Source: Janibacter anophelis NBRC 107843
GTDB taxonomy: Bacteria > Actinomycetota > Actinomycetes > Actinomycetales > Dermatophilaceae
Assembly: GCF_001570945.1 (NCBI RefSeq)
Contig: NZ_BCSQ01000042.1
Location: 1-32,990 of the forward strand
DNA length: 32,990 bases
Reading direction: 5' to 3'
Part shown: piece after piece, positions 165-32,470 of the stretch
How positions within the stretch are numbered: position 1 is the stretch's first letter
Layout: the number at the start of each line of letters is the position of its first letter
Position numbers and translations under genes: made by a program
The notes under the pieces: model-generated
The model's input: the letters and a program-made list of their open reading frames with translations, nothing else
Database searches by the model: none
What the model was told of the DNA's origin: nothing

Positions 165-1985
165 ATGAGTGGCGACGGCCGGACCCGGCGACACGACCTG
201 TGGGACGACGACGAGTTCGAGGGCACGACCGACCCCGTGGGGTCATCCGCCGACCCCGAACCCGCCGCCGACCCCGAGCCGGAGACCACCGCCGCGGCCG
301 CACCGGCCGCCGCAGCCGCCACGACGAAGGGGGACGAGTTCCCCTCGCGTCGCGCCCACCGTCAGCAGGCCAAGGACGACCAGCGCAAGAAGCGGCCCGC
401 CTGGCTCGTCCCGGTCGCCGCCGTCGTGGCCCTCGCGCTGTGCGGCGGCGGTGCCTTCGCCGCCCTCGGCGGCGACGACACCGAGACCGCGTGCGGCGGG
501 GAGGCCATCACCGTGGCCGCCACCCCCGAGATCGCCGTGCCGCTCGAGGAGGCCCTGGACAAGGTCAAGGAGGGTGACGAGTGCGCCGAGTTCGAGGTCA
601 GCTCGACCTCGGCCGCCGACGCCGCCCGCAACATCAACGACGGCCAGGCCCCCGACGTGTGGATCCCGGACAGCTCGACATGGATCGACGCGATCGACCC
701 CGACGCGACGAAGGGCCAGTGGCTCCAGGGCCAGTCCATCGCCACCTCCCCCGTCGTCCTGGCCACCGGCGCCGACCAGCAGGGTGAGGTCGCGCAGGTC
801 CAGTCGTGGGGCAACCTGCTCAACACCGAGGGCGGCCTGCGGATGGCCAACCCCGACACCGACACCGCGAGCCGCCTGGCCTTCCACGCCAGCCGGATCG
901 GGCAGCCCGACCGCATCGGCCTCGAGACCGGCGAGCGCCTGATCTTCATGTCGCGCTTCGCCGCGCCCTCGCTCAACAAGCTGCTCGCCGACTACACGGC
1001 CGACCAGAAGAAGACCCAGCCCTTCCCGGCCTCCGAGCAGCAGATCGCCGCGTACAACGAGGACAACCCGGACGTCACCCCCCTTCGCGCCGTGATGCCG
1101 AAGAAGGGGACGCTCTCCCTCGACTACCCGTGGATCATGAACCCCGAGCTGAAGGGGGACGCGCTGGCCATCGCGGACCGCGCCCGCACCGAGCTCGGCA
1201 CCGTCGAGACGCGCGAGGCGCTCACCGAGGCCGGATTCCGCGACTCCAACGGCTCCGGCGGCCCCGAGATCGCCGGGCAGGCACCGGCCGAGCTCACCGA
1301 GCTCGACCCCCTCGACCGCAACGAGCGCCTCGACGCCGTCGACCAGTGGGACAAGATGCGCACCGACATGCGCATGCTCGCCGTCATCGACGCCTCCGGG
1401 TCGATGAAGTGGGACAGCCCGTCCCCGGGCATGACCCGGTGGGAGGTCACCAAGGGCTCGTTGACCAAGGGCGCGGGCATCCTGCCTGACGGCAGCCAGG
1501 TCGGCGCGTGGATCTTCAGCACCGACCAGGCCAAGGGCCGCGACTACCGCGAGCTCTCCCCCGTCACCCGACTCGACGCCAAGGCGGGCTCGGGCACGCA
1601 CCGCGACCGGCTGCGCAGCCTGGTCAAGAACAGCGACCGGTACCTCGGCGGCGACACCGCCCTCTACGACTCGATCTGGGCCGCCCACCAGAAGATGGTC
1701 AAGGAGTACGACCCCGACTACGTCAACTCCATCGTCGTCTTCACCGACGGTGAGAACGACGACCCCAACGGTGGCCTCTCCCTCAACCAGCTGTTGAAGA
1801 AGCTCGACGACGCCTACGACGCGAAGAAGCCGGTGCGCATCATCACCATCGGCATGGGCGAGGCCAACCCGACGGCCCTGCAGAAGATCTCGGACGAGAC
1901 GGGCGGCACGAGCTACATCGCCGAGACGCCCGACGACATCGAGCGCGTCTTCGTCCAGGCCCTGCTGGCCCGCAGCGGGCGCTGA
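165..1985 (+). CDS. Membrane-anchored solute-binding-like/VWA domain protein
   Basis: A 606-residue protein. ATG 165 is preferred over GTG 138 because AAGGAG (152-157) lies 7 nt before it. Residues 1-77 are acidic, then Ala/Pro-rich and finally basic. Residues about 78-101 form one membrane helix, so the rest is outside the cell. Residues about 110-390 resemble a periplasmic-binding-protein fold (AITVAATPEIAVPLEEAL, then DVWIPDSSTWID). A C-terminal von Willebrand A domain has a complete metal site: D409-A-S-G-S and D528 in FTDGEND. Actinobacterial proteins with this pairing are annotated as substrate-binding and VWA domain proteins; their ligand is not established. The gene stands alone, and it need not belong to the ABC importer downstream. 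A CGAAGGGGG copy at 325 encodes part of the flexible linker (TTKGDE). Confidence 0.88.
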   Translation: MSGDGRTRRHDLWDDDEFEGTTDPVGSSADPEPAADPEPETTAAAAPAAAAATTKGDEFPSRRAHRQQAKDDQRKKRPAWLVPVAAVVALALCGGGAFAALGGDDTETACGGEAITVAATPEIAVPLEEALDKVKEGDECAEFEVSSTSAADAARNINDGQAPDVWIPDSSTWIDAIDPDATKGQWLQGQSIATSPVVLATGADQQGEVAQVQSWGNLLNTEGGLRMANPDTDTASRLAFHASRIGQPDRIGLETGERLIFMSRFAAPSLNKLLADYTADQKKTQPFPASEQQIAAYNEDNPDVTPLRAVMPKKGTLSLDYPWIMNPELKGDALAIADRARTELGTVETREALTEAGFRDSNGSGGPEIAGQAPAELTELDPLDRNERLDAVDQWDKMRTDMRMLAVIDASGSMKWDSPSPGMTRWEVTKGSLTKGAGILPDGSQVGAWIFSTDQAKGRDYRELSPVTRLDAKAGSGTHRDRLRSLVKNSDRYLGGDTALYDSIWAAHQKMVKEYDPDYVNSIVVFTDGENDDPNGGLSLNQLLKKLDDAYDAKKPVRIITIGMGEANPTALQKISDETGGTSYIAETPDDIERVFVQALLARSGR

Positions 1986-2025
1986 CGACCCTTCGAGCCG
2001 GTCGCTGCACGACCTCCTCAGGGAT
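1986..2025. repeat. Repeat-like intergenic segment with TTCGAGCCGGTCGC
   Basis: The stretch directly after the VWA stop contains CCCTTCGAGCCGGTCGCTGC followed by ACGACCTCCTCAGG. Its GGTCGC ... (AC)GACC arms can fold imperfectly. It looks like one of the short dispersed palindromes that litter Micrococcales genomes, but there is only one copy of this exact form here, so family membership is inference. Confidence 0.35.
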
Positions 2026-2063
2026 CGTCGTGGGACCGCGCTGACGGTCACGACTGGGTCAAA

Positions 2064-2094
2064 CTCGGGCGGCGCTCCTCCCCTCGCCGCCGAG
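2064..2094. terminator. GC-rich hairpin before the ABC importer operon
   Basis: CTCGGGCGGCG pairs with CGCCGCCGAG, leaving one bulged G and a 10-nt loop. It lies between the VWA gene and the amino-acid importer, so it could end the former transcript. No T-run follows. Confidence 0.4.
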
Positions 2095-2159
2095 GCGGTG
2101 GCACGATGACCCGCACCGGGCACGCATCCAGTGCCCCATCGTGCATCTGGAGGATGACC

Positions 2160-3050
2160 ATGCGCCGTGCCCACGTCGCTCTCTTCGCCTGCCTCGCCCT
2201 CGGGACGAGCGCCCTGACCGCGTGCGGTTCCGACTCGCTCGACACCGGCGGAGGCTCCAGCGACTCGCCCACGGAGGCCGCCGAGGTCACCGTCGACGAG
2301 GAGGTCGCCGCGCTCGTCCCCGAGGAGATCAAGAGCAAGGGCACGCTGAGCGTGGGCTCCGACGCCTCCTACGCCCCCAACGAGTTCCTCGGTGACGACG
2401 GCAAGACCGTCGAGGGCATGGACGTCGACCTCTTCAACGCGGCCGCCGCCAAGATGGGCCTGAAGACCGAGTGGAACAACGCCCCCTTCGACGGGCTCAT
2501 CCTCGGGGTCGACTCCGCGAAGTACGACGTGGCCGTCAGCTCGTTCACCATCAACGACGAGCGCAAGAAGTCGGTCAACATGATCAGCTACTTCAACGCC
2601 GGCACGCAGTGGGTCACGACCAAGGGCAACCCGGACAAGGTCGACCCCAAGGACCCTTGCGGCAAGACGATCGGCGTGCAGAAGGGCACCGTCCAGCTCG
2701 ACGAGCTCAACGCGCTGAACAAGGAGTGCGACGAGAAGATCAAGCTCGTCGTCGAGCAGGAGCAGTCCAAGGTCACCGCGAGCCTCGTCTCCGGCAAGAC
2801 CGAGGCCATGGCCGCCGACTCCCCGATCAGCCTCTACGCCGTCAAGCAGCAGAGCGAGGAGCTCGAGGCCCTCGGCGAGACCTACGACTCCGCCCCCTAC
2901 GGCATCGTCATCCCCAAGGACCAGACGGAGTTCGGCGAGGCCATCGCCGCCGCCTTCAAGAGCATGAAGGAGGACGGCTCCTACGACGCCATCCTCAAGA
3001 ACTGGGGCAACGAGACCGGCGGCATCGACGACTTCGCCGTCAACCCCTGA
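2160..3050 (+). CDS. Amino-acid ABC transporter substrate-binding lipoprotein (family 3)
   Basis: A 296-residue extracellular solute-binding protein of the polar amino-acid (family 3) type. ATG 2160 is chosen because CTGGAGG (2147-2153) sits 6 nt upstream; ATG 2154 overlaps that site. Residues 1-22 are a lipoprotein signal with lipobox L-T-A-C22, so the mature protein is lipid-anchored outside the membrane. The family-3 landmarks are [16 protein letters not shown], then [16 protein letters not shown], the later [20 protein letters not shown], and the C-terminal [12 protein letters not shown]. The gene is the first of a three-gene operon with the permease and ATPase; its TGA overlaps the permease ATG (ATGA). 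The substrate is probably a polar amino acid, not resolvable further from sequence. Confidence 0.93.
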
Positions 3051-4059
3051 TGACCTCCGACCAGGCCGCGGCGGTCCCCCCTTCGTCCGACGAAGGGGGG
3101 ACCGCCCCCGGTCTCGACACCGGCCCGATCGACGCCGTCCCCGTGCGCCACCCGGGACGGTGGGTCGCGCTGGCGGTCATCGCGGTGATCTTCGCGATGA
3201 TCATCTCCAGCTTCGTCACCAACCCGCGGTGGGACTGGCCCTTCGCCTTCCAGGTGATAAACTACAGCCCCGTCCTCGAGGGTCTGCTCAAGGGCACGAT
3301 CATCGCGACGATCGGCTCGATGATCATCGGCGTGAGCCTCGGTGTCGTCATCGGTGTCATGCGGCTGTCGGACAACCCGGTCCTGAAGTTCGTCGGGTTC
3401 CTCTACACGTGGTTCTTCCGCGGGATCCCGCGGCTGGTGCTCGTCGTGCTCTTCGGCACCGGCATCGGCTACCTGTACCCGAAGTTCGACATCGGGCCCT
3501 TCCCCTTCAGCCAGCAGCTCGCCGGCTGGCTCGGCCTGAGCAGCGACCTGACGCTGTTCACCTTCGACGTCAACCAGATCAGCAGCACACTCATCTGGGG
3601 CATCATCGCCATGGGCCTGTCGGAGGCCGCGTACATGGCCGAGATCGCCCGCGCCGGCATCATGTCGGTCGACGAGGGCCAGCGCGAGGCCGCGGCGGCC
3701 CTGGGCATGAAGCCGAGCCTGTCGATGCGCCGGGTCATCCTGCCGCAGGCGATGCGCGTCATCATCCCGCCGACCGGCAACGAGACGATCGCGATGCTCA
3801 AGGACACCTCGCTGCTCATGGCGCTGCCGCTGAGCACCGAGCTGTTCTTCCAGGCGCAGGCCATCGGCAACCGGACGCTGAAGATCATGCCCACCCTCAT
3901 GGCCGCGTGCCTCTGGTACCTCGTCATCACGTCGGTGCTCATGGTCGGGCAGTACTTCCTCGAGCGGCACTTCGGACGCGGCTACGGCAACACGTCCACG
4001 CAGACCAAGGCGGACACGACCAGGACCCGTCTCATGGGCCTGACGATCGGAGGCGGCAA

Positions 4060-4866: not shown

Positions 4867-4874
4867 GTGACGGT

Positions 4875-4915
4875 CTCCCCCCTTCGTCGTGGGTGCGAGG
4901 ACGGCGAAGGGGGAG
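4875..4915. terminator. CCCCCTTCG/CGAAGGGGG hairpin after the importer operon
   Basis: CTCCCCCCTTCGTCG (4875-4889) and CGGCGAAGGGGGAG (4902-4915) are inverted arms with one extra C on the left, around a short loop. Together with its position just after the ATPase stop this suggests a terminator or mRNA-end hairpin. It is built from the window-wide CGAAGGGGG motif. Confidence 0.6.
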
Positions 4916-4930
4916 GCGTAAGGTGACGCG

Positions 4931-6205
4931 GTGCGTCGCCTCCGGGGCCTGCTGGCCGACACCCGCCCCCTCAAGGTGCCGGCGTACCGTCGCCTCTTCA
5001 CCGCCCAGATCGTCACGGTCATCGGGGCGCAGCTGACCGTCGTCACCGTCCCGGCGCAGATCTACTCGATGACCGGGTCGAGCGCCTACGTCGGACTGAC
5101 TGGGCTCTTCGGGCTCGTGCCGCTCGTGATCTTCGGGCTCTACGGCGGGTCGCTCGCCGACCACTTCGACCGGCGACGGCTGCTGACCTTCACCACGTGG
5201 GGCCTGATCCTCACCTCCGCGGCGTTCTGGGTACAGGCGGCCCTGGGCAACACCAATGTCTGGCTGCTGCTCGGCATCTTCTCCCTGCAGCAGGCCTTCT
5301 TCGGCGTCAACCAGCCCACCCGCTCGGCGGTGCTCCCGCGGATCCTGCCGGCCGAGCTGCTGCCGGCGGCCAACACGCTCAACATGACGGTCTTCACCGG
5401 TGGGGCGATCGCCGGACCGCTCGTCGGCGGCGCACTGATCCCCGTGCTCGGGTTCTCGTGGCTCTACCTCGTCGACACGATCTTCCTCTTCGCCACCCTC
5501 GCAGCGGTCATCTCCCTGCCCCCGCTGCCGGTCGAGGTGGTCGCCGGGTCCTCCCCCGGCATCCGCTCCGTCATCGACGGCTTCGTCTACCTCGGGACGC
5601 AGCCGGTGCTGCTCATGTCCTTCGTCGTCGACCTCATCGCGATGGTCTTCGGCATGCCGCGTGCACTCATCCCCGAGATGGCGCACGTGGACTTCGGCGG
5701 CCCCGACGAAGGGGGTCTGGCGTTCGCTCTGCTCTTCGCGGCCATGCCCATCGGCGCCTTCCTCGGCGGCGTCATGTCGGGGTGGGTGTCGCGGGTCGAA
5801 CGCCAGGGGCTGGCGGTCACCGTCGCGATCCTCGTCTGGGGCGCGGCGATCATCGGGTTCGGCGTCGCGGTGGCCCTCGCCGACGGGCTGCTCGTGCCGT
5901 GGCTGGCGATCGCGTGCGTGTTCTTCGCGATCGGCGGTGCGGCCGACACGGCATCCGCGGCCTTCCGCTCGACGATGCTGCAGACCGCGGCGACCGACGC
6001 GATGCGGGGTCGGCTGCAGGGGGTCTTCATCGTCGTCGTCGCCGGCGGGCCGCGTGTCGCGGACGTGCTGCACGGGCTCGTCGCCGGGCAGGTCGGCACG
6101 GCCGCCGCGACCATCGGCGGTGGCGTGCTCGTCATCATCGGCACGCTCGTCGCGACGGCGTGGGTGCCGGCGCTGGTGCGGTACCGGGTGCCGCGGGCGG
6201 GCTGA
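4931..6205 (+). CDS. MFS transporter (MFS_3/EntS-like)
   Basis: A 424-residue integral membrane protein with about 12 hydrophobic segments. N-terminal FTAQIVTVIGAQLTVVTVPA and the loop GGSLADHFDRRRLL (an MFS motif-A-like Gly/Asp/Arg loop between helices 2 and 3) place it in the MFS. Its helices resemble the enterobactin-exporter-type MFS_3 group, which exports small molecules by proton exchange; the substrate is unknown. GTG 4931 is the most upstream start that keeps the basic N-tail (MRRLRGLLADTRPLKVPAYR); GGGAGG lies about 14 nt away, so the start is not certain. A CGAAGGGGG copy at 5707 encodes PDEGG in a loop. It is not overlapped with neighbours and is probably its own unit. Confidence 0.88.
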   Translation: MRRLRGLLADTRPLKVPAYRRLFTAQIVTVIGAQLTVVTVPAQIYSMTGSSAYVGLTGLFGLVPLVIFGLYGGSLADHFDRRRLLTFTTWGLILTSAAFWVQAALGNTNVWLLLGIFSLQQAFFGVNQPTRSAVLPRILPAELLPAANTLNMTVFTGGAIAGPLVGGALIPVLGFSWLYLVDTIFLFATLAAVISLPPLPVEVVAGSSPGIRSVIDGFVYLGTQPVLLMSFVVDLIAMVFGMPRALIPEMAHVDFGGPDEGGLAFALLFAAMPIGAFLGGVMSGWVSRVERQGLAVTVAILVWGAAIIGFGVAVALADGLLVPWLAIACVFFAIGGAADTASAAFRSTMLQTAATDAMRGRLQGVFIVVVAGGPRVADVLHGLVAGQVGTAAATIGGGVLVIIGTLVATAWVPALVRYRVPRAG

Positions 6206-6247
6206 CCATTCGCTGACCTCCTCTTCATACACGGATCACGAAGGGGG

Positions 6248-6306: not shown

Positions 6307-7890
6307 ATGACCCTCTCTCGTCGCCACGTCATCGCCGGCGGACTCGCCGCCGGCACCATCGCCTCGACCTCCGCGGTTGCGTCCGCCTCCCCCGCCACCT
6401 CCCTGCTCATCGCCACGGGACCGCTGCGGGTCTCCCCCTTCGCCCTCGGTGTCGCCTCCGGTGACCCCACCCCCACCGGGGTCGTCCTGTGGACCCGACT
6501 GGCCATCGAGCCGCTCGCCGATGACGGCCGCGGCGGCATGGACGCCCGCGACCGGCAGGTGCAGTGGCAGATCGCCGACAACCCGCAGATGCACCGACCC
6601 GTCGACCGCGGCACCGTGACCGCCCGCGCCGCCGACGCCCACTCCGTCCACGTCGAGGTCGACGGGCTGCGCCCCGGCCGCGAGTACTGGTACCGCTTCC
6701 GCATCGACGGGCACCTCAGCCCGATCGGCCGCACCCGCACCTCCCCCGCGCCGCACGAGATGCCGTCCGCGCTCGCGATGTCCTTCGCGAGCTGCTCCAA
6801 CTGGGAGGCTGGGTTCTTCACCGCCTACCGCTACCTCGCCGACGACCAGCCCGACCTGGTGCTGCACCTCGGCGACTACCAGTACGAGGGCAAGGGCAAG
6901 GCGGCGGCGGTGCGCACCCACGCCGGGGACGAGACGGTCACCCTCGCGGGCTACCGCCTGCGGCACTCGCAGTACAAGACCGACCCCGACCTGCAGCTCG
7001 CCCACGCGATCGCGCCGTGGCTCGTCGTGTGGGACGACCACGAGGTCGACAACAACTGGGCCGCGGGCGTCCCGCAGGACCTCAAGGCGCCGGAGTGGAA
7101 TGACACCCCCGAGCGCTTCCTCGCCCGCCGGGCCAACGCCTTCCGCTCGTACTACGAGAACATGCCGCTGCGCCGCTCCTCGATCCCCAACGGCCCGGAC
7201 ATGCGGATCTTCCGCCGCCTCGGCTGGGGTCGCCTCGCGAACTTCCACATGCTCGACACCCGCCAGTACCGCGACGACCAGGCCTGCGGCGACGGCTGGG
7301 ACACCAACTGCGGCGAGGCGCTCGACCCGAGCCGCACGATCACCGGCGCAGAGCAGGAGGCGTGGCTGCGCGACGGCTTCGAGCGCAGCCGGGCGCGCTG
7401 GGACTTCCTCGGCCAGCAGGTCTTCTTCACCACCCGCGACGGCAAGCAGCCGGTCGAGGAGCTGCACACGAGCAATGACTCGTGGGACGGCTACGCGGGC
7501 TCGCGCGACCGGGTGACCCGGGCCTGGCAGGACGCCGGCGTGCGCAACCCCGTCGTGCTCACCGGCGACGTCCACAAGCACTGGGCCGCCGACATCAAGA
7601 CCGACTACGCAGACCCCGACAGCCAGGTCATCGGCACCGAGCTCGTCACGACGTCGATCACCTCCGGCGGCGACGGCGACGCGGCCTGGTCCGACCCGAT
7701 CATGGCGTGGAACCCGCACCTGAAGTACTCCGCCAACCAGCGCGGGTACGTGCGCACGACGGTCACGCCCGACGGGCTGCGCGCCGACTTCCGCTCGCTC
7801 GACCGGGTGACCACGCGCGGCTCGGCCATCCGCACCGCGGCCAGCTTCGAGGTCGAGGACGGCCAGCGGGGGCTGCAGCGCGTGGGGTGA
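6307..7890 (+). CDS. phoD: Alkaline phosphatase D (PhoD), Tat-exported
   Basis: A 527-residue secreted phosphodiesterase/phosphomonoesterase that releases phosphate outside the cell. The N-terminus carries a Tat signal: S-R-R-H-V-I-A-G-G at residues 4-12, a hydrophobic stretch and A-S-A processing site. An N-terminal beta domain (VASGDPTPTGVVLWTRL) precedes the metallophosphatase core. Metal and active-site motifs: FASCSNW near residue 159, LHLGDYQYE, WDDHEVDNNW and LTGDVHKHW. Length is normal for PhoD. GGGAGG lies about 8 nt before the ATG. It is a single-gene unit ending in a strong hairpin. The upstream GTTCAC direct repeats suggest phosphate-starvation control. Confidence 0.93.
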   Translation: MTLSRRHVIAGGLAAGTIASTSAVASASPATSLLIATGPLRVSPFALGVASGDPTPTGVVLWTRLAIEPLADDGRGGMDARDRQVQWQIADNPQMHRPVDRGTVTARAADAHSVHVEVDGLRPGREYWYRFRIDGHLSPIGRTRTSPAPHEMPSALAMSFASCSNWEAGFFTAYRYLADDQPDLVLHLGDYQYEGKGKAAAVRTHAGDETVTLAGYRLRHSQYKTDPDLQLAHAIAPWLVVWDDHEVDNNWAAGVPQDLKAPEWNDTPERFLARRANAFRSYYENMPLRRSSIPNGPDMRIFRRLGWGRLANFHMLDTRQYRDDQACGDGWDTNCGEALDPSRTITGAEQEAWLRDGFERSRARWDFLGQQVFFTTRDGKQPVEELHTSNDSWDGYAGSRDRVTRAWQDAGVRNPVVLTGDVHKHWAADIKTDYADPDSQVIGTELVTTSITSGGDGDAAWSDPIMAWNPHLKYSANQRGYVRTTVTPDGLRADFRSLDRVTTRGSAIRTAASFEVEDGQRGLQRVG

Positions 7891-7900: not shown

Positions 7901-7951
7901 GGACGAAGGGAGGCCCCGCCGCAGATCACGCGGCGGGGCCTCCCTTCGTCC
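7901..7951. terminator. 22-bp perfect stem terminator after phoD
   Basis: Positions 7901-7922 and 7930-7951 are perfect reverse complements over 22 bp with a 7-nt loop (AGATCAC). The outer ends of the stem are GGACGAAGGGAGG and CCTCCCTTCGTCC, so this terminator is also built around the CGAAGGG motif. It separates phoD from the cyd operon. Confidence 0.85.
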
Positions 7952-8054: not shown

Positions 8055-9494
8055 ATGGACGTGCTCGACCTCGCGCGGTGGCAGTTCGCGATCACCACCG
8101 TGTATCACTTCTTCTTCGTGCCGATCACGATCGGGCTGTCCGCGATCGTCGCGTGGTACCACTCGCGGTGGGTCCGCACGCGCGACGAGGGCCACCTGCG
8201 GATGGCGAAGTTCCTCGGCAAGCTCTTCACGATCAACTTCGCGCTCGGGCTCGTCACGGGCATCGTGCAGGAGTTCCAGTTCGGGATGAACTGGTCGACC
8301 TACTCGCGCTTCGTCGGCGACATCTTCGGTGCACCGCTCGCCCTCGAGGCGCTGCTCGCGTTCTTCCTCGAGTCGACCTTCCTCGGCCTGTGGATCTTCG
8401 GCTGGGGCCGCATCCCCGAGCGGCTGCACGCGGCGACCATGTGGATCGTGCACATCGGCACGGTGCTGTCGTCGTACTTCATCCTCTCCGCCAACTCCTT
8501 CATGCAGCACCCGGTCGGCTACCGGATCAACCCCGAGACCGGGCGCGCCGAGATGGCCGACTTCCTCGCGATCCTCACCAACCCGGTCCAGCTCGTCGCC
8601 TTCCCCCACGTCATCACCGCCTGCTACCTCGTCGGTGGCGCCTTCGTCATGGCCGTCGGGTTGCACAAGCTCCGCCTCAACCGGACGAAGGGGGGACCCG
8701 ACGCCGACCGCAGGATGTACCGTCACGCGGCCCGCCTGGGTGCCGTCGTCGTCCTCGTCTCCGGGATGGGCGTGGCGATCAGCGGTGACCTGCAGGGCAA
8801 GGTGATGACCGAGGTCCAGCCGATGAAGATGGCGGCCGCAGAAGCCCTGTACGACACCCCGCCAGCCGGCGAGTGCGCCCCCTTCTCCGTCCTGACGGTC
8901 GCCGGGCTCGGTGGCGAGGACCCCACGCACGTCATCGAGATCCCCTGCCTTCTCTCCTTCCTCGGCACGGGCACCTGGGACGGGCAGGTGCGCGGCATCG
9001 CCGACCTCGAGGCCGAGTACCGGGCGAGCTTCGCCGACGACGAGCTGACGCAGGCACCGACCTACGTCCCGCCGATCGCGATGACGTACTGGAACTTCCG
9101 CCTGATGATGGCCACCGGCTTCTTCGCGATGGCCGTGGGCGCGTGGGTGCTGTGGGCGACGCGCAAGGACCGAGTGCCGATGCAGCGCTGGGTGCAGGCG
9201 CTCATCGTGCTCACCCCGATCGCGACGGTCCTCGGGCACAGCTTCGGCTGGATCTTCACCGAGGTCGGCCGACAGCCGTGGGTCGTCTTCGGCGAGATGG
9301 CGACGCACACCGCGGTCTCGCCCAGCGTCGGCGCGAGCGACGTGTGGACGTCGATGATCGTCTTCACCCTGCTCTACGGAGGCCTGGCCGTCGTCGAGGT
9401 CCGCCTCCTGCTCGACTACATCCGCCGCGGCGCCGAACCCTTCGAGGCCCCGCGCCTTGTCGAGGACGACCAGCCGCTCGAGTTCGCCTACTGA
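8055..9494 (+). CDS. cydA: Cytochrome bd ubiquinol/menaquinol oxidase subunit I
   Basis: A 479-residue membrane subunit that carries the hemes and oxidises quinol while reducing oxygen. ATG 8055 follows AGGAGA by 5 nt. Family hallmarks: W9-Q10-F11-A with H18 (heme ligand region) in TTVYHFFFVPITIGL; the segment GLVTGIVQEFQFGMNW; WIFGWGRIPERLH; SANSFMQHPVGY; and G405-R-Q-P-W in the Q-loop region. It has the short Q-loop usual in actinobacteria. First gene of cydABDC; 15 nt separate it from cydB. A CGAAGGGGGG copy at 8686 encodes N-R-T-K-G-G in a polar loop. Low oxygen or respiratory-stress induction would be expected for the family but is not shown here. Confidence 0.96.
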   Translation: MDVLDLARWQFAITTVYHFFFVPITIGLSAIVAWYHSRWVRTRDEGHLRMAKFLGKLFTINFALGLVTGIVQEFQFGMNWSTYSRFVGDIFGAPLALEALLAFFLESTFLGLWIFGWGRIPERLHAATMWIVHIGTVLSSYFILSANSFMQHPVGYRINPETGRAEMADFLAILTNPVQLVAFPHVITACYLVGGAFVMAVGLHKLRLNRTKGGPDADRRMYRHAARLGAVVVLVSGMGVAISGDLQGKVMTEVQPMKMAAAEALYDTPPAGECAPFSVLTVAGLGGEDPTHVIEIPCLLSFLGTGTWDGQVRGIADLEAEYRASFADDELTQAPTYVPPIAMTYWNFRLMMATGFFAMAVGAWVLWATRKDRVPMQRWVQALIVLTPIATVLGHSFGWIFTEVGRQPWVVFGEMATHTAVSPSVGASDVWTSMIVFTLLYGGLAVVEVRLLLDYIRRGAEPFEAPRLVEDDQPLEFAY

Positions 9495-9509: not shown

Positions 9510-10610
9510 ATGGATCTCATCACCGTCTGGTTCGTCCTGCTGGCGATCCTGTGGACCGGCTACCTCGTGCTCGAGGGCTTCGACTTCGGGGTCGGCATGC
9601 TGTTGCCGGTGCTGGATCGGGGGCGTGGTCTCGATCGAGGGCGTGGTCTCGAGGCTCCTTCGTCGCACCTCGACCAGCGTGGGGAGCGTGAGGCCAACGA
9701 CCGGCGCCGCACGATGCTCACGACGATCGGGCCGCACTGGGACGGCAACGAGGTGTGGCTGCTCACCGCGGGCGGCGCGACTTTCGCGGCCTTCCCCCAC
9801 TGGTACGCGACGATGTTCTCCGGGATGTACCTGGCGCTGCTCCTCCTGCTCGTCACGCTCATCCTGCGCAACATGGGGCTGGAGTACCGGCACAAGCGCA
9901 CCGACCGCGAGTGGGTGCGCCGCTGGGACCTGGCGATCGTCGGCGGCTCCTTCCTCGCCCCCTTCCTCGTCGGTGTGGCCCTCACCAACCTCGTCGCCGG
10001 TCTGCCGATGACCGAGCACACGATGGGCAGCACGCGCTACACCGAGTTCGACGGGTCACTCCTCAGCCTGCTCACCCCGACCGCTCTGCTCGGCGGAGTG
10101 ACCGTCACCGTGCTGTGCCTCGCGCACGGGGCGCACTTCCTCGCGCTCAAGACCACCGGCGACATCCGAGAGCAGGCTCGCGCCGTCGCGACCAAGGCCG
10201 GCCTGGCCTCCGCCGTCCTCGCCGTCGTCCTGCTCGCCACGCTCGGGGCCCAGCGCGGCACCGCCGCCTCGTGGGTGGTCTCGGGCATCGCCGCCGTCGC
10301 GCTGCTCGCTGCGATCGCCGCCAATGCGAAGGGAGCGGAGGGCTGGGCCTTCACCGGCACCTCCGCGACGATCGCCCTGACGGTCGTCGCGTACTTCCTC
10401 ATGCTCTTCCCCAACGCGATCAACGGTCGCGGCGACAGCCCCGACCTCACGCTCGCGGCGGCGGCCAGCTCCCCGCTGACGCTGCAGATCATGACCTGGG
10501 CCGCCGTGGTCTTCACGCCGATCATGCTCGGCTACACGGCGTGGACGTACTGGGTCTTCCGCCGGCGGCTGTCGGTCGACGACCTGCCGCAGCCGGTGGG
10601 GGCGCACTGA
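9510..10610 (+). CDS. cydB: Cytochrome bd oxidase subunit II, with in-frame repeat insertion
   Basis: A 366-residue second subunit of the bd oxidase. The start is clear: GGGGAG precedes ATG 9510, and the protein begins MDLITVWFVLLAILW. The signatures VLEGFDFGVGMLLPVL and TIGPHWDGNEVWLLTAGG are typical. Between them lies an extra segment, residues 36 to about 60, that begins with the tandem hexapeptide D-R-G-R-G-L twice and continues with LEAPSSHLDQRGE. In the usual family sequence this loop has only a few residues. The DNA of the segment is two 18-bp tandem repeats plus one family B palindrome, so it is best read as in-frame repeat insertion into the first cytoplasmic loop. The remaining helices look intact, so the protein is probably functional. 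It ends 2 nt before cydD. Confidence 0.94.
   Translation: MDLITVWFVLLAILWTGYLVLEGFDFGVGMLLPVLDRGRGLDRGRGLEAPSSHLDQRGEREANDRRRTMLTTIGPHWDGNEVWLLTAGGATFAAFPHWYATMFSGMYLALLLLLVTLILRNMGLEYRHKRTDREWVRRWDLAIVGGSFLAPFLVGVALTNLVAGLPMTEHTMGSTRYTEFDGSLLSLLTPTALLGGVTVTVLCLAHGAHFLALKTTGDIREQARAVATKAGLASAVLAVVLLATLGAQRGTAASWVVSGIAAVALLAAIAANAKGAEGWAFTGTSATIALTVVAYFLMLFPNAINGRGDSPDLTLAAAASSPLTLQIMTWAAVVFTPIMLGYTAWTYWVFRRRLSVDDLPQPVGAH
9615..9676. repeat. Tandem 18-mers plus family B palindrome inside cydB
   Basis: The 18-nt unit GATCGRGGGCGTGGTCTC occurs at 9615-9632 and 9633-9650. Its end runs into the family B palindrome at 9645-9676 (GGTCTCGAGGCTCCTTCGTC, then GCACCTCGACCA). The sequence contains no in-frame stop and keeps cydB open. 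The intergenic copy at 7959-7989 matches the palindrome with one difference. Confidence 0.85.
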
Positions 10611-15210: not shown

Positions 15211-15236
15211 TCGGGCGCGGCGCCCCCTTCGCCCGG

Positions 15237-18711: not shown

Positions 18712-19188
18712 TCAGCAGGCGGTGCCCTCGCCGAGCAGGTCGGTGAGGGCCTGGCGCAGGGCGTCGCTCGCGTCCCGACCGATCCGCCCGGCCCACTCCT
18801 GCTCGACCTCGGCGAAGAGGCGGTGCACGACGACCTGGGCGCACTCCCCCTTCGTCGTGAGGGCGACGATGCGGGCCCGCTGGTCCTCGTCGTCGCGGCA
18901 GACGCTGACATAGCCGTTGCGCTCGAGGTGGGCGATCTGCTGGCTGACCGCCTGCTTGGTCACGCCGCAGCGCTCGACGATGTCGCGGGCCCGGCGCGGG
19001 CCGTCGGCGAGGTGCCGCAGGACGTTGGAGGAGTGCGCGAGCGAGAGGCCCTCGATCTCGGACGCGCGCAGCCGCTCCTCGAAGTCGGCGACGAAGCTCG
19101 CCTGCGCTCGGGCGAGCAGGCTGACCAGCGGCGGGTGCCCGTCGGCGCCCGCACAGACCGCGACGTCCGCGGGCAGGGGTGTGGTCAT
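18712..19188 (-). CDS. MarR-family transcriptional regulator
   Basis: A 158-residue winged-helix regulator. Start 19188 (MTTPLPADVAV) is preferred; an in-frame start at 19206 is possible and would approach the operator. The DNA-binding part reads LAHSSNVLRHLADGPRRARD, CGVTKQAVSQQIAHLERNGY and the wing RDDEDQRARIVALTTKG; helices at both ends would make the dimer. It is divergent from the FMN reductase gene, and paired GTCAAG-NN-CTTGAC palindromes lie between them, the usual arrangement for a MarR repressor controlling itself and its neighbour. The inducer is unknown; a quinone or electrophile would suit an FMN reductase. Confidence 0.9.
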   Translation of the reverse strand: MTTPLPADVAVCAGADGHPPLVSLLARAQASFVADFEERLRASEIEGLSLAHSSNVLRHLADGPRRARDIVERCGVTKQAVSQQIAHLERNGYVSVCRDDEDQRARIVALTTKGECAQVVVHRLFAEVEQEWAGRIGRDASDALRQALTDLLGEGTAC

Positions 19189-19920: not shown

Positions 19921-19966
19921 CGGGTGCATGAGGGGGCACCCCCGGGGACGAAGGGGGGAAGGCCAG

Positions 19967-22979: not shown

Positions 22980-22994
22980 CCCTCCCTTCGTCCC

Positions 22995-23024: not shown

Positions 23025-23165
23025 CGGCGTACCCGGGCGGGGAGTCCTCCCCCTCGCGATCCCGCCATCGCGCCCTATGCTCGGATGCGGACGAAGGGGG
23101 AACATGACCGTCACCGATGGGAGGGAAGCCGGGCGCGTCCGCGAGATCGCGGCCCGGCTACGACC

Positions 23166-24607: not shown

Positions 24608-25170
24608 GCACGCTCGCCGAGCTGTCGCTGCCGCGTGCCGTCGTGGTCATCGACACCGACCGCGCTGACGCCGCCCTCGCCGCGAGCGCCCTCGTCGCGG
24701 CCCTCGCGGAGACAGGCACCGCCGTCGGATCGCTGCGCCTCGGCGACGAGGGGCCGGTTGCCCGGCAGGCCCTGAGCGCCGCCGGCGGTGACCACGACGT
24801 GCTCGTCGCGCACGCTCCCGGGGGGCTGCTCGTGCCGCTCGACGCCCGGGGCGGGACGCTCGCGGACGTGGGCACCTCCCTTCGCTACAAGGGGGTCTCG
24901 ACCGGCGCCGTCCTCGTCAGCTCGGGCGGTGACACGGCGTCCAACGCCCTCGCTCTGACGGCCGAGGCGCTCGCCCGACGCGAGCTGCCGGTCATCGGCG
25001 TGGTCCTCGTCCTCGCCGACGGACCAGGGGTCCCGGCGCTCGACCGGCTGGTCACCGCGGCCGGCGCGCCCGTACTCGCGGTGCTGTCGGCCGATGCAGA
25101 CCCGACGTCGCCGGGCTCACAGGGTGCTCCCGGTTTTTTCCCCGAGACGTGGGGGACGATGGCCCCATGA
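24604..25170 (+). CDS. BioD-like (dethiobiotin synthetase fold) protein lacking the P-loop
   Basis: A 188-residue protein resembling the dethiobiotin-synthetase-like P-loop fold. HAPGGLLVPLDARGGTLADV matches the BioD GAGG-LLVPL segment, and NALALTAEALARRELPVIGV matches the following helix-strand. The N-terminus should be GTDTGVGKT-like, but reads VVIDTDRADAALAASALVAA, so the phosphate-binding Gly/Lys/Thr residues are absent. It is therefore unlikely to bind ATP in the normal way and may be a regulatory or structural relative. GTG 24604 overlaps the PanE stop, and its own stop overlaps the phosphatase ATG. It cannot be called bioD with confidence. Confidence 0.65.
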   Translation: MSTLAELSLPRAVVVIDTDRADAALAASALVAALAETGTAVGSLRLGDEGPVARQALSAAGGDHDVLVAHAPGGLLVPLDARGGTLADVGTSLRYKGVSTGAVLVSSGGDTASNALALTAEALARRELPVIGVVLVLADGPGVPALDRLVTAAGAPVLAVLSADADPTSPGSQGAPGFFPETWGTMAP

Positions 25171-26398: not shown

Positions 26399-26419
26399 GC
26401 CTCGTGACGAAGGGGGGAA

Positions 26420-26633: not shown

Positions 26634-26691
26634 CATGTCACGGGCTCGGACGGCGACGTCACCTCCCTTCGCCTGATGGGAGGATGTGCCC

Positions 26692-28101: not shown

Positions 28102-28331
28102 CGCCTCCGCCACCGTCCGCCCCGCGGTCGAGGTATCCCCGGTGGAGGTAGCAGCGGCGCTTGTGGAGGGTCGCAGTTGCCTCGACCGAGTGGTCGAGCA
28201 CGACCGGGGCGAAGGGGGCACACCACCCACCAGCAAGGCCCGCGCGGGTCGAGGTACCAGCGGCCCTAGCGGAGGGTCGTCCCTACCTCCACCCGTTCGA
28301 AGGGGGGCAGCCCTCTCACCTCGAAGGAGCC
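28102..28331. repeat. Intergenic stretch with degenerate GGTCGAGGTA repeats
   Basis: No gene is apparent between the convergent purB and MMPL genes. Two related blocks, starting GGTCGAGGTATCC (28128) and GGTCGAGGTACCAGC (28246), both continue with GCGG-C-CT--(T/C)GGAGGGTCG. Inverted relatives (TGCCTCGACC and CCTACCTCCACC) allow hairpins. Two CGAAGGGGG copies (28210 and 28298) are present. It looks like decayed short palindromes and may serve as a two-way transcription end. Confidence 0.5.
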
Positions 28332-30488
28332 TCAGCCCTCCCGCGTCGACGCACGTGCGACTGCGGCCTCGTCGTCGACGACCGCACCCTCGTCCGGCGC
28401 CATCGCCCCTGCCCATGGCCACCAGATGCGGTTGCCCAGGTCGGCGGCGATGGCCGGCACGAGGATCGAGCGGGTGACGATCGTGTCGAGCAGCACGCCG
28501 AAGGCGACGATGAAGGCGATCTGCGCGAGGAAGAGCAGCGGGATCACCCACAGCGCGCTGAAGGTCGCGGCGAGCACGACTCCGGCGCTCGTGATGACGC
28601 CACCGGTGACCGCAACCGCTCGCTTGATGCCCTGCCGCGTGCCCACCTGGAGCGACTCCTCCCTTGCCCGCGTCATGAGGAAGATCGAGTAGTCCACCGC
28701 GAGTGCGACGAGGAAGACGAAGCCGAGCACCGGCGTCGACGGGTCCGCCCCCGGCTGGTCGAGCACCTGGGTGAAGAGCACCGCCGAGACCCCGAGCGTC
28801 GCGGCGAAGGTCAGCACGTTGACCAGTACGAGCAGCACGGCCGCCGCGATCGAGCGCAGCAGCGCGATGAGGATGACCGTGACGACGAGCAGGATCGCCG
28901 GCACGACGACGCGGTAGTCACGCGTGCTCGCCTCGTCGGTGTCCACCGCGGTGGCCGTGGTGCCGCCGACGAGGATCTCGCTGTCGACCGCGTGCAGCTC
29001 GTCGCGCAGGTCGCGCACGACCTCGCGCGCCTCCTCCGACTCCGACCCCACGGTCAGCGTCGCCGAGAGCAGCGTCGACCCGGACCCGCTCGTCGACTCC
29101 TGCTGCTCGACACGCTCCGCGACGTCGGAGTGGCCCGTGAGCACTCCCTTCGCCTCATCGACCGAGGCGTCGGGCACGACGACCTGCACGGGTTGCTGGT
29201 CGCCGCCGTCGAAGTGCCGGTCGAGCACCCCCTGGCCGTCGACCGACTCGACCTGGGTCGTGAAGAACTGCGCCTGCGTGATGCCCGAGGTCGGGAAGGT
29301 CACGGCCGCCGCGGCCGCGACGACGAGCACCGCCGTCGTCACGATCCAGGTCAGGCGCGGGCGGGCCGTGACCCGCTCCGCGACCGCGGACCACAGCCGG
29401 TGCCGCGGCTGGGTGCCGCGCTTGGGGATCGCCGGCCAGAAGGCAGCCCGGCCGAGCAGGGCGAGCGCCGCGGGCAGCAGGGTGAGGGCGGCGACCATCG
29501 CGCCGAGGATGCCGAGGGCACCGACCGGCCCGAGGCCGGAGATGTTGCCCAGGTCCGACAGCAGCAGGCAGAGCAGGCCGGCGATGACCGTGCCGCCACT
29601 CGCCACGACCGGGCCGAGGGTCTGACGCCACGCCACCTTGAGAGCGGGCAGGGGGTCGCTCGAGTGCAGCTCCTCGCGGTAGCGCGCGACGAGCAGCAGC
29701 GCGTAGTCGGTCGCGGCCCCGACGACGAGGATGAAGAGGATGCCCTGGCTCTGCCCGGACAGCTGGATCCACTCCGCCTTCGCCATCGGGTAGATGACCA
29801 AGGCCGCGGCGGCCAGCCCGAAGATGCTCGTGAGGAGCACGACGAAGGGGAGCACCGGGCTGCGGTAGACGATGAGCAGGATGACGAGGACGACCGCGAG
29901 CGCCACGAGGAGCAGCAGCCCGTCGATGCCGGCGAAGGCCTCGCCGAGGTCGGCGGTGAACCCGGCCGGGCCGGTGACGTAGGCGGTCGCGCCAGCGACG
30001 TCCGGCCCGAGGCCCGCGCGCAGGTCCGTCACGAGCAGCTCGGAGATCGCGGTCTCGTCCACGGTCTCCCCCACGGCCTGCGCGTCGAGGCTGAGCACGG
30101 CGATCGCGGCCTGCCCGTCCTCGGACGGGATGACCGGGATCTGCGGCGCGGTCAGGTAGTCCCCCACCGTGCCGGGCACGTCCTGCACCTGCTCCTGCGG
30201 CAGCTGCTTGGCCCAGGTCTGCAGCTCACCGATCGCCTGCCGGTCGAGGTCGCCGTCGGACTCGACGGCGACGATGAGCGGCAGGGTCGCGTCGGCGTTG
30301 AAGTCGTCCAGCTGCTCGGCGACCCGCGTCGACTCCGCGCTCTGGGGCAGGAAGCTCGCCTGGTCGTTGTCCTGCACGCTCGTGAGCTGACCGACGAGCG
30401 GACCGCCGATGCCGGCGATCACGAACCACAGGAGGATCACGACTCCCGCGAGCACCCGCACGACAGTGGACGATCCGGTGAGCCTCAT
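28332..30488 (-). CDS. MMPL/RND-family transporter (second)
   Basis: A 718-residue membrane exporter of the MMPL family. The start at 30488 gives MRLTGSSTVVRVLAGVVILL, a typical first helix. The two halves each have an outside domain and a helix bundle: first-half helix 4 region VVGAATDYALLLVARYREEL, second-half VFLVALAVDYSIFLMTRAREE. Both have the D-Y proton-relay motif. It is only distantly like the 20676-22979 protein and has shorter outside domains. It lies 53 bp downstream of the SGNH hydrolase gene on the same strand, so a two-gene operon is possible. The cargo is unknown; a lipid-type product would suit both genes. Confidence 0.92.
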   Translation of the reverse strand: MRLTGSSTVVRVLAGVVILLWFVIAGIGGPLVGQLTSVQDNDQASFLPQSAESTRVAEQLDDFNADATLPLIVAVESDGDLDRQAIGELQTWAKQLPQEQVQDVPGTVGDYLTAPQIPVIPSEDGQAAIAVLSLDAQAVGETVDETAISELLVTDLRAGLGPDVAGATAYVTGPAGFTADLGEAFAGIDGLLLLVALAVVLVILLIVYRSPVLPFVVLLTSIFGLAAAALVIYPMAKAEWIQLSGQSQGILFILVVGAATDYALLLVARYREELHSSDPLPALKVAWRQTLGPVVASGGTVIAGLLCLLLSDLGNISGLGPVGALGILGAMVAALTLLPAALALLGRAAFWPAIPKRGTQPRHRLWSAVAERVTARPRLTWIVTTAVLVVAAAAAVTFPTSGITQAQFFTTQVESVDGQGVLDRHFDGGDQQPVQVVVPDASVDEAKGVLTGHSDVAERVEQQESTSGSGSTLLSATLTVGSESEEAREVVRDLRDELHAVDSEILVGGTTATAVDTDEASTRDYRVVVPAILLVVTVILIALLRSIAAAVLLVLVNVLTFAATLGVSAVLFTQVLDQPGADPSTPVLGFVFLVALAVDYSIFLMTRAREESLQVGTRQGIKRAVAVTGGVITSAGVVLAATFSALWVIPLLFLAQIAFIVAFGVLLDTIVTRSILVPAIAADLGNRIWWPWAGAMAPDEGAVVDDEAAVARASTREG

Positions 30489-30541: not shown

Positions 30542-31627
30542 TCAGCGCGCCGCGTCGATGACCGCCTCCGCGGTCGCGGCGTAGCCCTCCTGCGTCGGGT
30601 GCACCCACTCCGGCAGCTGCCGTCCGGGCGCGAGGACCGGCACGAGCCAGGCCTGCGAGTTGTCGGGCGTCGTGCTCGGGTCGAGGCCGTGCGTCAGGCC
30701 GTCCCATGCGGGCTTGACGTCGACGAAGGTGTACCCGTGCGGGCCGGTGTCGGCGGCGTCGAGCTCGGCGACTCCCTTCGCCTGCAGCTCATCCCCGCGC
30801 GCCTGCATGGCGAAGAGCGCCGCCCCCGCGTCATAGGTCGGCGCGGCCTCGGGGATCGAGTAGCTCGCCGTGTTGAGCAGGTTGGGGTAGCCGACGAGGT
30901 GGACCTCGGCGTTGCCGCGCGAGCGGTCGTGGATCGCCTGCAGCGCTGCGGCGGTCCGGTCCCGCAGGTCCGGCAGCGCGGCGTCGGCCGCGGCGATCGT
31001 GCTCTCGCAGCCGGTGGCCGAGCGCAGCACCATGCACTGAAGCACGATGCCGCTGAAGTTCACGTCGTTGCCGCCGATCGTCAGGAAGACGGCGTCGGTC
31101 TCCTGGGTGACCGCGTCGATCTGCGGCGCCGCGGTCAGCTGGCACGAGACGGTGGCGGTGAGCTCCACGTTCCCTGAGGTCGCGGCGGTGGTCTCCCCCA
31201 CGAAGCTCATCTCCCACGACAGGTCCGGCTGCGTCGTCTCGCCGCACAGCTGGTCCGCCTTCGCCCGGCGCAGCCACTTGTCCTGCTGGACCTGCGCGTT
31301 GCCCGCGACCCGATAGGTGGCGGTCCGCGTGGTGGGGGCCCCGAGCTGACGGGGCTGGGTGAGGTCGGCGACCCGGCCACCGCTGCACGCGGCGTTCACG
31401 TGCTCCGCACCGTCGTGCTCGGCGACGAGGGCGCCGTAGGTGTCCGGCGAGCGCCAGCACGTCGTCTCGGTGTAGGTGCCCGCGCCGTTGCCCGCGGTGT
31501 AGGAGTCCCCGAGGCTCACGTACTGGAGCGGCGGCGCCGAGGTCGCGGGTGGGGCGGTCAGCCCCACCCCGGCCGCGACGGCGGCCACGGCGGTGGCGAT
31601 GGACAGACGGCGGCGACGTGCGCGCAT
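30542..31627 (-). CDS. Secreted SGNH/GDSL-family hydrolase
   Basis: A 361-residue exported esterase/lipase. Start 31627 has GGGAGG 7 nt upstream in its own direction; the frame is open further upstream but non-coding in look. Residues 1 to about 31 are a signal peptide (RARRRRL, hydrophobic, ATSA). Block I is YVSLGDSYTAGNGAG with the catalytic Ser. Block III is TIGGNDVNFSG. The C-terminal EWVHPTQEGY supplies the catalytic His (HPT in place of Asp-x-x-His). Six or more cysteines suggest disulfides, as in secreted Streptomyces-type lipases. Probably first gene of a unit with the MMPL transporter. Confidence 0.93.
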   Translation of the reverse strand: MRARRRRLSIATAVAAVAAGVGLTAPPATSAPPLQYVSLGDSYTAGNGAGTYTETTCWRSPDTYGALVAEHDGAEHVNAACSGGRVADLTQPRQLGAPTTRTATYRVAGNAQVQQDKWLRRAKADQLCGETTQPDLSWEMSFVGETTAATSGNVELTATVSCQLTAAPQIDAVTQETDAVFLTIGGNDVNFSGIVLQCMVLRSATGCESTIAAADAALPDLRDRTAAALQAIHDRSRGNAEVHLVGYPNLLNTASYSIPEAAPTYDAGAALFAMQARGDELQAKGVAELDAADTGPHGYTFVDVKPAWDGLTHGLDPSTTPDNSQAWLVPVLAPGRQLPEWVHPTQEGYAATAEAVIDAAR

Positions 31628-31697
31628 GGCTTCCCTCCCGTGCCGCTCTCCGTCGAGCGGCGTATCGGTCGAGGCTAGTCCTCGGGCGACGCCCGCG

Positions 31698-31727
31698 GGG
31701 ACGAAGGGGGTCATCTCCCTTCGTCCC
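31698..31727. repeat. CGAAGGG inverted repeat upstream of the hydrolase gene
   Basis: GGGACGAAGGG (31698-31708) and CCCTTCGTCCC (31717-31727) are perfect 11-bp arms with an 8-nt loop. It lies in the divergent region between the hydrolase gene and the prepilin peptidase gene, so here it is not at a gene end. It could be in the 5' leader of either. Confidence 0.75.
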
Positions 31728-31852
31728 AATGCCGTGATCACCGCATGGCAGTGACCAGAGCCAGGGCGCTCGCGCCCCATCCGGCGGCGCTCGGGTGGAC
31801 CCACTCGTAGTACGACGTCCTGGTCCTCGCCGCTCTCGGCGCCGCCGTCGGC

Positions 31853-32470
31853 GTGCTCCTGCGCTCACGTCTGGTGCTGTTGAACCACCGACTGGACGAC
31901 GAGCGGGAGCTGGGGCGACCCCCTTCGTCGTGGGTGGTTCCGGTGACCGCACTGCTCACCGCCGGCCTGTGGTGGGCCACCGCCCCCGACCACTCCCCCG
32001 TCGTCCCCGCGGTCCACGTCCTCGCCGGCTGCACGATGGTCGTGCTCGGCTTCATCGACCTCGACGTGCACCGCCTGCCCGACCGCATCCAACTGCCCGC
32101 ATACCCGACTCTCGCAACGCTGCTCGCGATCTGCAGCCTCGTCGAGAGCGAGTGGACCCCCTTCGTCCGGGCGCTGGTCGCCGGGGTCGCGCTCTTCGTC
32201 CTCTACCTCGTCCTGGCGCTGCTGCCGGGGGGCGGGATCGGCTTCGGCGACGTCAAGCTCGCCGGGCTACTCGGCATGCTCCTCGGCTGGCACTCGTGGA
32301 CGCACGTCCTGCAGGGGACCATGGCGACCTTCCTCATCGGTGGAGTGGTCGCGGTGGCGCTGCTCGCGTTGCGGCGCAAGGGCGCTCGTGACGAGTTCGC
32401 CTACGGCCCACCCATGCTCGTCGGTGCCGCAGGGGCGATCATCGTCCCGCCGCTGCTCGCCCTGCTGTGA
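31853..32470 (+). CDS. Prepilin peptidase (A24 family)-like protein, N-terminus uncertain
   Basis: A 205-residue membrane protease from GTG 31853, which would cleave type IV/Flp prepilin signals at the inner membrane. Both catalytic Asp motifs are present: LGFIDLDVHRLPDRIQLPAY (D-x5+-P-D) and GGGIGFGDVKLAGLLG (G-x-G-D). About six helices are visible. No Cys zinc motif or methylase loop is seen, so it is the short form. Odd point: the first helix (LVLAALGAAVGVLL) starts upstream of the GTG in the same frame, but TAG at 31808-31810 closes that frame and no ATG, GTG or TTG lies between. Either a CTG start (31820) is used or the gene is damaged at its 5' end. No ribosome site was found. Confidence 0.75.
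   Translation: MLLRSRLVLLNHRLDDERELGRPPSSWVVPVTALLTAGLWWATAPDHSPVVPAVHVLAGCTMVVLGFIDLDVHRLPDRIQLPAYPTLATLLAICSLVESEWTPFVRALVAGVALFVLYLVLALLPGGGIGFGDVKLAGLLGMLLGWHSWTHVLQGTMATFLIGGVVAVALLALRRKGARDEFAYGPPMLVGAAGAIIVPPLLALL

Follow-up and report, generated by a model that had tools for sequence, protein, structure and literature searches.

A short word dispersed through Janibacter genomes as a candidate dialect of an uptake tag system in Actinomycetota

In this study, we analyzed a stretch of 32,990 bases from Janibacter anophelis NBRC 107843 (hereafter the window), which forms contig 42 in a genome assembly of 3.31 Mb and 124 contigs, and found that the 9-mer CGAAGGGGG is massively over-represented both there and throughout the genome. 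Together with its variant CGAAGGGAG and a preference for G followed by a purine (G-R) immediately upstream, this word is probably the Janibacter dialect of an uptake tag system in Actinomycetota that resembles the DNA uptake sequences (DUS) of Neisseriaceae, to judge from its number, form and distribution. A wider proposal, to which we give about even chances, is that a code for the uptake of self DNA arose in Gram-positive Actinomycetota apart from the two proteobacterial families, with genus-own words in several genera of the family of Janibacter and Knoellia and in part of a second family, with a Tad-type (not PilT-type) filament as the reader, and with a switch of Janibacter to a wholly new word. 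We infer from the sequence pattern that the word is read in uptake, what kind of reader this may be, and that self-preference results. Sequence-specific DNA uptake has been stated to be known only in Neisseriaceae and Pasteurellaceae (PMC12616744).

The word was the commonest 9-mer of the window, with 28 exact copies (17 on the forward and 11 on the reverse strand), and Markov models predicted only 0.45 (order 1), 0.94, 1.19 and 1.93 (order 4). The 7-mer CGAAGGG occurred 50 times (23 forward and 27 reverse). A first-pass annotation had counted about 28 and about 48 copies by hand, and both figures held, whereas its base composition of 36% each for G and C was inaccurate (33.8% and 37.8%, respectively). 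The whole genome contained 1,850 copies (935 and 915 on the two strands), or approximately one per 1.8 kb, compared with 26 (15 and 11) for the reversed word used as control. The over-representation is confirmed and is larger than previously described. In 433 kb of this genome (window included), 295 copies were present vs 12.0 expected (order 3), and 400 kb of the congeneric genome G009 had 286 vs 13.6.

The word is also sharply defined. Single changes at positions 1-7 were at or below expectation, or at most about 3-fold above it on small counts, such as G at position 1 (16 vs 5.0 expected). A at position 8, which gives CGAAGGGAG, was clearly enriched (73 vs 9.9 in the 433 kb and 116 vs 10.4 in G009), and so was A at position 9 (47 vs 7.1 and 66 vs 7.2, respectively); T at position 9 was weakly enriched (28 vs 10.2 and 24 vs 12.4). 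The variant CGAAGGGAG, with 11 copies in the window, is therefore a real sister form, as had been suggested. Upstream of the word, G occupied position -2 in 73-78% of copies and A or G position -1 in 76%; the base right after it was G in only 18-26%. Since the window had 22 copies of GACGAAGGG, none of GCCGAAGGG and eight of GGCGAAGGGGG, the upstream context is G-R and not "GA or GC" as first described. The Janibacter consensus is G-R-CGAAGGG-R-G, and the unit common to the copies is only about 11 bases long.

To describe the extent of the word, 58 genomes were sampled by kinship: 16 of Janibacter, 20 of other genera of the family and 22 of other families. The boundary of its abundance is the genus Janibacter. 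All 16 Janibacter genomes had 797-1,860 copies, the 20 other genera of the family 13-72 and the 22 genomes of other families 5-67, some of these non-Janibacter genomes reaching two to three times their reversed control (64 vs 23 in G023 and 67 vs 24 in G046).

Sister genera have words of their own at similar density. A blind word search of pooled Knoellia loci, a pool that includes a record named Janibacter sp. HTCC2649 (locus L041), returned CGGCATAC with 118 copies in 140 kb vs 4.8 expected. At the whole-genome level, 9 of the 20 sampled family genera had 939-4,724 copies, three more had 196-293 (including G034, where 293 copies were only twice the 130 of the reversed control) and the other eight 11-95; Janibacter genomes had 9-38. 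The reversed control was itself raised in the nine rich genera (99 to 454), in G030 because the extended site GGCATACGGC includes the reversed word. A survey of 297 genomes of the order, including 24 from this family, found more than 1,000 copies in 13 of the family; outside the family no genome exceeded 177, although some had two to three times their own control. Like CGAAGGGGG, the Knoellia word was dense between genes (2.14 per kb vs 0.69 within them), exceeded synonymous shuffling within genes (87 vs 7.7) and was conserved, 290 of 401 aligned sites being identical vs 27% for permutations (seven loci, pairs counted both ways). Between one and three window sites could be aligned with each Knoellia locus, and none of these carried the Knoellia word.

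Further words were found in samples of 60-400 kb. CGCATAC in G035 (39 vs 4.7 expected in 60 kb; 9 and 7 copies in loci L050 and L054) and CGGCATCC in G031 (46 vs 6.1) were weaker finds, each from a single genome. G030 had a long AGCGGCATACGGC form, approximately AGC-N-AGCYCAGCGGCATACGGC. In a second family of the same order, AGGCATCC had 320-1,496 copies in 8 of 13 genomes, 12- to 94-fold over the reversed control. Thus, words that follow clades were found within the family, and the pattern was weaker for the second family. No comparably strong word was detected in 60 kb samples of G016, G017, G021, G023, G024, G025 and G029, in 40 kb samples of G028, G034 and G037, or in G036, G039, G040, G042 and G046, bearing in mind that words below about 0.2 per kb could escape searches of genome samples. 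The best words of these negative searches had z of 8 to 13, those of G031 and G035 z of 16, and the clear cases z of at least 24.

Two individual records stood out. In L041 (Janibacter sp. HTCC2649), 22 kb contained 21 copies of CGGCATAC, and CGAAGGGGG was absent; since this record carries the Knoellia word, the word could serve as a taxonomic marker. For the CydC-like protein of the window, the best six relatives were all Janibacter-named (68-80% identity over the best segment), and HTCC2649 had 52%. L053 (Phycicoccus elongatus Lp2) had 19 copies of CGGCATAC in 21 kb, unlike seven other Phycicoccus loci, from which this word was absent.

Conservation at aligned sites exceeded that of comparable words. 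In a 63 kb alignment (84% identity) between our sample of the J. anophelis genome and G009, 33 of 47 words were identical; the figure was 160 of 437 for permuted words (P = 1e-5) and, for abundant words with similar G+C, 973 of 2,159 (P = 9e-4). The window and six named Janibacter loci were also compared in turn, each with the other six; in these seven comparisons, which overlap and are thus not independent, 33 to 69% of words and 24 to 33% of permutations were identical, with a significant excess in all but one. Of 81 site comparisons for the window, 39 were identical, 32 differed by substitutions only and 10 included gaps. For the window, the commonest single change was to CGAAGGGAG (7 of 14). 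The same held for most other comparisons, except L031 and that from G009 to our genome; in L033 it was tied. Taken together, the predominance of point changes among species and the excess identity at aligned sites indicate that the word is held by selection or drive.

With regard to placement, genes were called with a simple purpose-made gene finder in the 433 kb and in the 400 kb of G009. In the former, 214 of 295 copies lay in genes and 81 between them (0.55 vs 1.77 per kb); in the latter, 190 of 286 lay in genes and 96 between (0.54 vs 2.04 per kb), so that intergenic density was three to four times genic density. Genic copies in the 433 kb used all six frames, unevenly. Shuffling synonymous codons left on average 32 copies (31 in G009), which the observed genic counts exceeded 6.7 and 6.1 times, respectively; thus, the word is more frequent than proteins and codon use need. 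The earlier statements that copies lie in all reading frames and between genes, and that codon use does not explain them, were therefore borne out. Most copies were single, and opposite-facing pairs within 40 bp were in excess (19 in our genome and 13 in G009, approximately 4 expected), whereas same-facing pairs were not (4 and 1, approximately 4 expected). All four long hairpins that had been proposed near 3070, 4875, 7901 and 31698 folded, with energies (RNA parameters) of -39.3 kcal/mol (3064-3110), -30.9 kcal/mol (4870-4922), -59.4 kcal/mol (7895-7958) and -27.0 kcal/mol (31692-31732). Pairing at gene ends, also proposed, applied to two of them, whose words begin 12 bases past the gene end at 4866 and 14 bases past that at 7890; the last lies between divergent genes, and the first at a gene junction where the start of the gene is ambiguous. 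The sites of the window are as follows (position, strand, feature).

325..333, forward, word CGAAGGGGG, in gene 165-1985
1079..1087, reverse, word CGAAGGGGG, identical in 3/3 aligned Janibacter loci
2482..2490, reverse, word CGAAGGGGG, identical in 4/5 aligned Janibacter loci
3077..3085, reverse, word, left arm of hairpin 3064-3110, identical in 4/5 aligned loci
3091..3099, forward, word, right arm of hairpin 3064-3110, identical in 5/5 aligned loci
4878..4886, reverse, word, left arm of hairpin 4870-4922, after gene end 4866
4905..4913, forward, word, right arm of hairpin 4870-4922
5707..5715, forward, word CGAAGGGGG, identical in 1/6 aligned loci
6239..6247, forward, word CGAAGGGGG, intergenic
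6434..6442, reverse, word CGAAGGGGG
7904..7912, forward, variant CGAAGGGAG, left arm of hairpin 7895-7958, after gene end 7890
7940..7948, reverse, variant CGAAGGGAG, right arm of hairpin 7895-7958
8686..8694, forward, word CGAAGGGGG, two relatives have CGAAGGGAG there
10327..10335, forward, variant CGAAGGGAG
10804..10812, reverse, variant CGAAGGGAG
11622..11630, forward, word CGAAGGGGG
11664..11672, forward, word CGAAGGGGG
13264..13272, reverse, word CGAAGGGGG, identical in 0/6 aligned loci
13617..13625, reverse, variant CGAAGGGAG
14304..14312, forward, word CGAAGGGGG
15223..15231, reverse, word CGAAGGGGG, intergenic
16376..16384, forward, word CGAAGGGGG, word or CGAAGGGAG in 5/5 aligned loci
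17604..17612, forward, word CGAAGGGGG
17752..17760, reverse, word CGAAGGGGG
18846..18854, reverse, word CGAAGGGGG, identical in 4/4 aligned loci
19949..19957, forward, word CGAAGGGGG, intergenic
22982..22990, reverse, variant CGAAGGGAG, intergenic
23092..23100, forward, word CGAAGGGGG, intergenic
24876..24884, reverse, variant CGAAGGGAG
26408..26416, forward, word CGAAGGGGG, intergenic
26663..26671, reverse, variant CGAAGGGAG, intergenic
28210..28218, forward, word CGAAGGGGG, intergenic
28298..28306, forward, word CGAAGGGGG, intergenic
29144..29152, reverse, variant CGAAGGGAG
30772..30780, reverse, variant CGAAGGGAG
31702..31710, forward, word, left arm of hairpin 31692-31732, between divergent genes
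31715..31723, reverse, variant CGAAGGGAG, right arm of hairpin 31692-31732
31919..31927, reverse, word CGAAGGGGG, intergenic
32157..32165, reverse, word CGAAGGGGG

These properties are similar to those of known tag systems. Neisserial DUS number about 1,900 in 2.2-2.3 Mb, form eight dialects in one family and show permissive sites, inverted pairs at terminators and variation by clade (PMC3630211). To that extent, the words of Janibacter and Knoellia match DUS anatomy (a copy every kb or two, a short asymmetric word, clade dialects, inverted pairs and permissive places both genic and intergenic) and can be regarded as candidate DUS systems. Unlike the DUS of Neisseriaceae, which are read by the minor pilin ComP, they occur in Actinomycetota, are different words and stand in genomes in which no PilT-type pilus was found; no counterpart of ComP is known here, and the likeness is one of sequence anatomy. 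The uptake signal sequences (USS) of Pasteurellaceae have a 9-base core in two versions within one family (PMC3630211). Here, too, the core has nine bases and the family more than one word, and G030 has extended flanks, but the Janibacter flank is only the upstream G-R, and the differences in phylum, words and pilus named for Neisseriaceae apply as well. In Haemophilus USS, the flanking tracts are A/T-rich. HIP1 of cyanobacteria, a palindrome linked to methylation, is likewise a short word that many members of one clade carry at about one copy per kb; unlike HIP1, the words of Janibacter and its sisters are not palindromes. The earlier suggestion of a DUS-like role is thus supported by the density, the sharp word, the absence of strand bias (see below), the hairpin pairs, the permissive positions, the conservation and, above all, the words of sister genera.

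Under the uptake reading, the competence apparatus would have a DNA receptor at the cell surface, probably a minor Tad pilus subunit or a protein next to ComEA, that binds double-stranded DNA at the word, and DNA of the same genus would then enter through ComEC and recombine. With every round of transformation, tagged fragments would take the place of untagged ones, so that the word accumulates, and the other words of related genera (CGGCATAC, CGGCATCC, CGCATAC and AGGCATCC) would limit exchange between genera. If this is true, sequence-specific uptake codes evolve repeatedly, also in another envelope and with another filament; gene exchange among these environmental bacteria is channelled by sequence; and a fresh system is at hand for finding receptors and for following how a word changes in a genome. 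It might also help to bring DNA into these bacteria in the laboratory.

The com genes that had been proposed as a check were present. In the J. anophelis genome, ComEA (SLBB and helix-hairpin-helix domains, from a Pfam scan of this sequence only) was encoded before ComEC, and a Tad cluster (L145:6902-11523) comprised a T2SSE ATPase, two T2SSF proteins, TadE, a TadE/G-like protein and two small unassigned frames. A pattern for ComEA retrieved 12 sequences from 30 loci, which were alike by eye in word-bearing and other genera. The Tad cluster resembles the transformation filament of Micrococcus luteus, a species with comEA, comEC and tad genes and no comG cluster (PMC6370729).

Several observations weigh against an uptake role. 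ComEC was found in 57 of 58 genomes and, being near-universal, does not track the words; 9 of the 20 sampled family genera lacked a strong word despite ComEC. Known tag systems rely on type IVa pili, and no PilT was over the cut-off in 36 family genomes (up to 29 candidates scored per genome), G020 having a match below the cut-off that was split in two pieces. No candidate for a word-reading receptor was identified. In five of the 13 genomes of the second family, AGGCATCC had only 65-335 copies, 2- to 9-fold over the control, and other families reach about 7-fold. The L035 comparison showed no significant excess of conservation (16 of 49 vs 28%), and in L031 gaps were present in 12 of 27 unequal sites. 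Spacings above 100 bp were more even than random in our genome, for which 0 of 2,000 simulations reached the same evenness; in G009 they were not (56% of simulations), and G009 also had one word-free gap of 14.3 kb, which held four copies of CGAAGGGAG and consisted of ordinary genes with no clear mobile element. Finally, no paper in the library searched mentioned both Janibacter and natural transformation. Among the matches listed, no such system was reported for CGAAGGGGG itself, Janibacter, Actinobacteria, M. luteus or gram-positives.

Two incidental observations concern mobile sequences. Inside the longest word-free gap of the G009 sample lies a dnaB with an intein (LAGLIDADG domain; L131:3500-5926), and Phage_portal (PF04860) had no match in any of the 16 Janibacter genomes, which thus offered no prophage of portal type in which a depletion of the word, as expected of DUS, would show.

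The main rival, which we consider unlikely, is a Chi-like signal: a one-strand word that switches RecBCD (in Janibacter) or AdnAB (in the others) from degradation to recombination and so shields self DNA. Like the Chi of RecBCD or AddAB, CGAAGGGGG is over-represented and asymmetric, and it is G-rich as in E. coli; Chi words also vary among species (PMC3630211). Of the 16 Janibacter genomes, 15 had RecC over the cut-off (the remaining one is 79% complete), and 13 of the 20 sister genera lacked it, so the word change could have followed the acquisition of RecBCD. On the other hand, the words do not follow RecC across genera. The seven sister genera with RecC were G021, G024, G025, G026, G028, G034 and G035, and only one of them (G026) belongs to the nine CGGCATAC-rich genera, the other eight of which had no match; five (G021, G024, G025, G028 and G034) had no strong word. 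RecBCD was thus rejected as a general reader. Two large PDDEXK_1 frames side by side, the arrangement expected of AdnAB, were present in the family, including our genome (C12:16344-20242), but among the matches listed such pairs occurred in both word-bearing and word-free genera, and their presence therefore explains nothing. Strand symmetry also speaks against Chi, which in E. coli is described as having a heavy leading-strand bias (PMC10025158). Around the G009 origin (dnaA at base 43; 200 kb each side), the two orientations of the word were in the ratio 76:77 on the right-hand side and 65:68 on the left-hand side, giving 144:142 for leading vs lagging strand, and the sister word of G030 (dnaA at base 227) gave 56:58; a bias of 75% is excluded (P approximately 4e-19 and 3e-9, respectively). 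The Chi alternative, raised in the first-pass annotation, hence fared worse than the DUS-like one, and it is weakest where genera with different helicase-nucleases share words. The same symmetry removed FtsK-orienting sequences (KOPS), whose strong origin-to-terminus orientation was not seen in the 200 kb on either side of the origin in G009 and G030.

It is also rather improbable that the word is bound by a protein with genus-dependent specificity that organises or silences the chromosome or binds DNA in some other role. The sharp word, its even spacing in our genome, the lack of strand bias and the long extended site of G030 would agree with such a protein. However, about 1,850 sites are far more than ParB, Noc or MatP have, thousands of sites would be hard to change between genera without a drive resembling gene conversion, and no candidate was found, no systematic search having been made. 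Should a protein outside competence be the reader, the dialects would be at least as puzzling.

A mobile micro-repeat copied by a transposase, similar to repetitive extragenic palindromes (REP), bacterial interspersed mosaic elements (BIME) or miniature inverted-repeat transposable elements (MITE), appears very improbable and is largely excluded for Janibacter. The hairpin pairs, the higher intergenic density, the gaps in L031 and the palindromic pairs of G030, in which the common arm is long and 71 of the 110 copies that could be placed are intergenic, are in its favor. However, such a repeat would yield insertions of whole units, whereas 32 of the 42 unequal window sites differed by substitutions only and 10 were gapped. 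In addition, the shared Janibacter unit is only some 11 bases, copies mostly stand alone, and genes contain 214 of the 295, in all frames. This alternative of the first-pass annotation was also less successful than the uptake reading.

Terminators or other RNA signals, to which the four window hairpins (two just past gene ends) might point, are excluded as the main role, since only 19 opposite pairs within 40 bp were found among 295 copies (13 among 286 in G009), most copies being single, in both orientations and inside genes. A by-product of mutation bias, codon use or assembly is excluded as well: despite the high G+C and the fact that an Illumina adapter sequence includes the Knoellia word, synonymous shuffles gave 32 vs 214 copies, neighbouring words were not enriched, and the Knoellia word is scattered, with conservation at aligned sites across seven loci of different genomes.

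Besides the word, other repeats were observed. The J. anophelis genome had a palindrome GCAT[CT]TCCCCGGGGA[AG]ATGC, with 19 strict copies in 433 kb (15 intergenic), often in 42 bp arrays; a looser form (21 copies) had close spacings of 42, 42, 42, 43, 84 and 84. Its window sites are as follows.

11599-11618, palindrome
11683-11702, palindrome
15241-15260, palindrome
15284-15303, palindrome
19855-19874, palindrome

The TCCCCGGGGA core was found once in L032 and was absent from the five other named Janibacter loci. The palindrome of G009 (loci L113-L132), which is centred on CCCTAGGG and unrelated to that of our genome, had eight of nine close spacings at 42 bp and the other at 32; 19 of 25 copies of ACCCTAGGGT in this genome were intergenic. 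The TCCCCGGGGA and CCCTAGGG palindromes thus differ in sequence and have the same layout.

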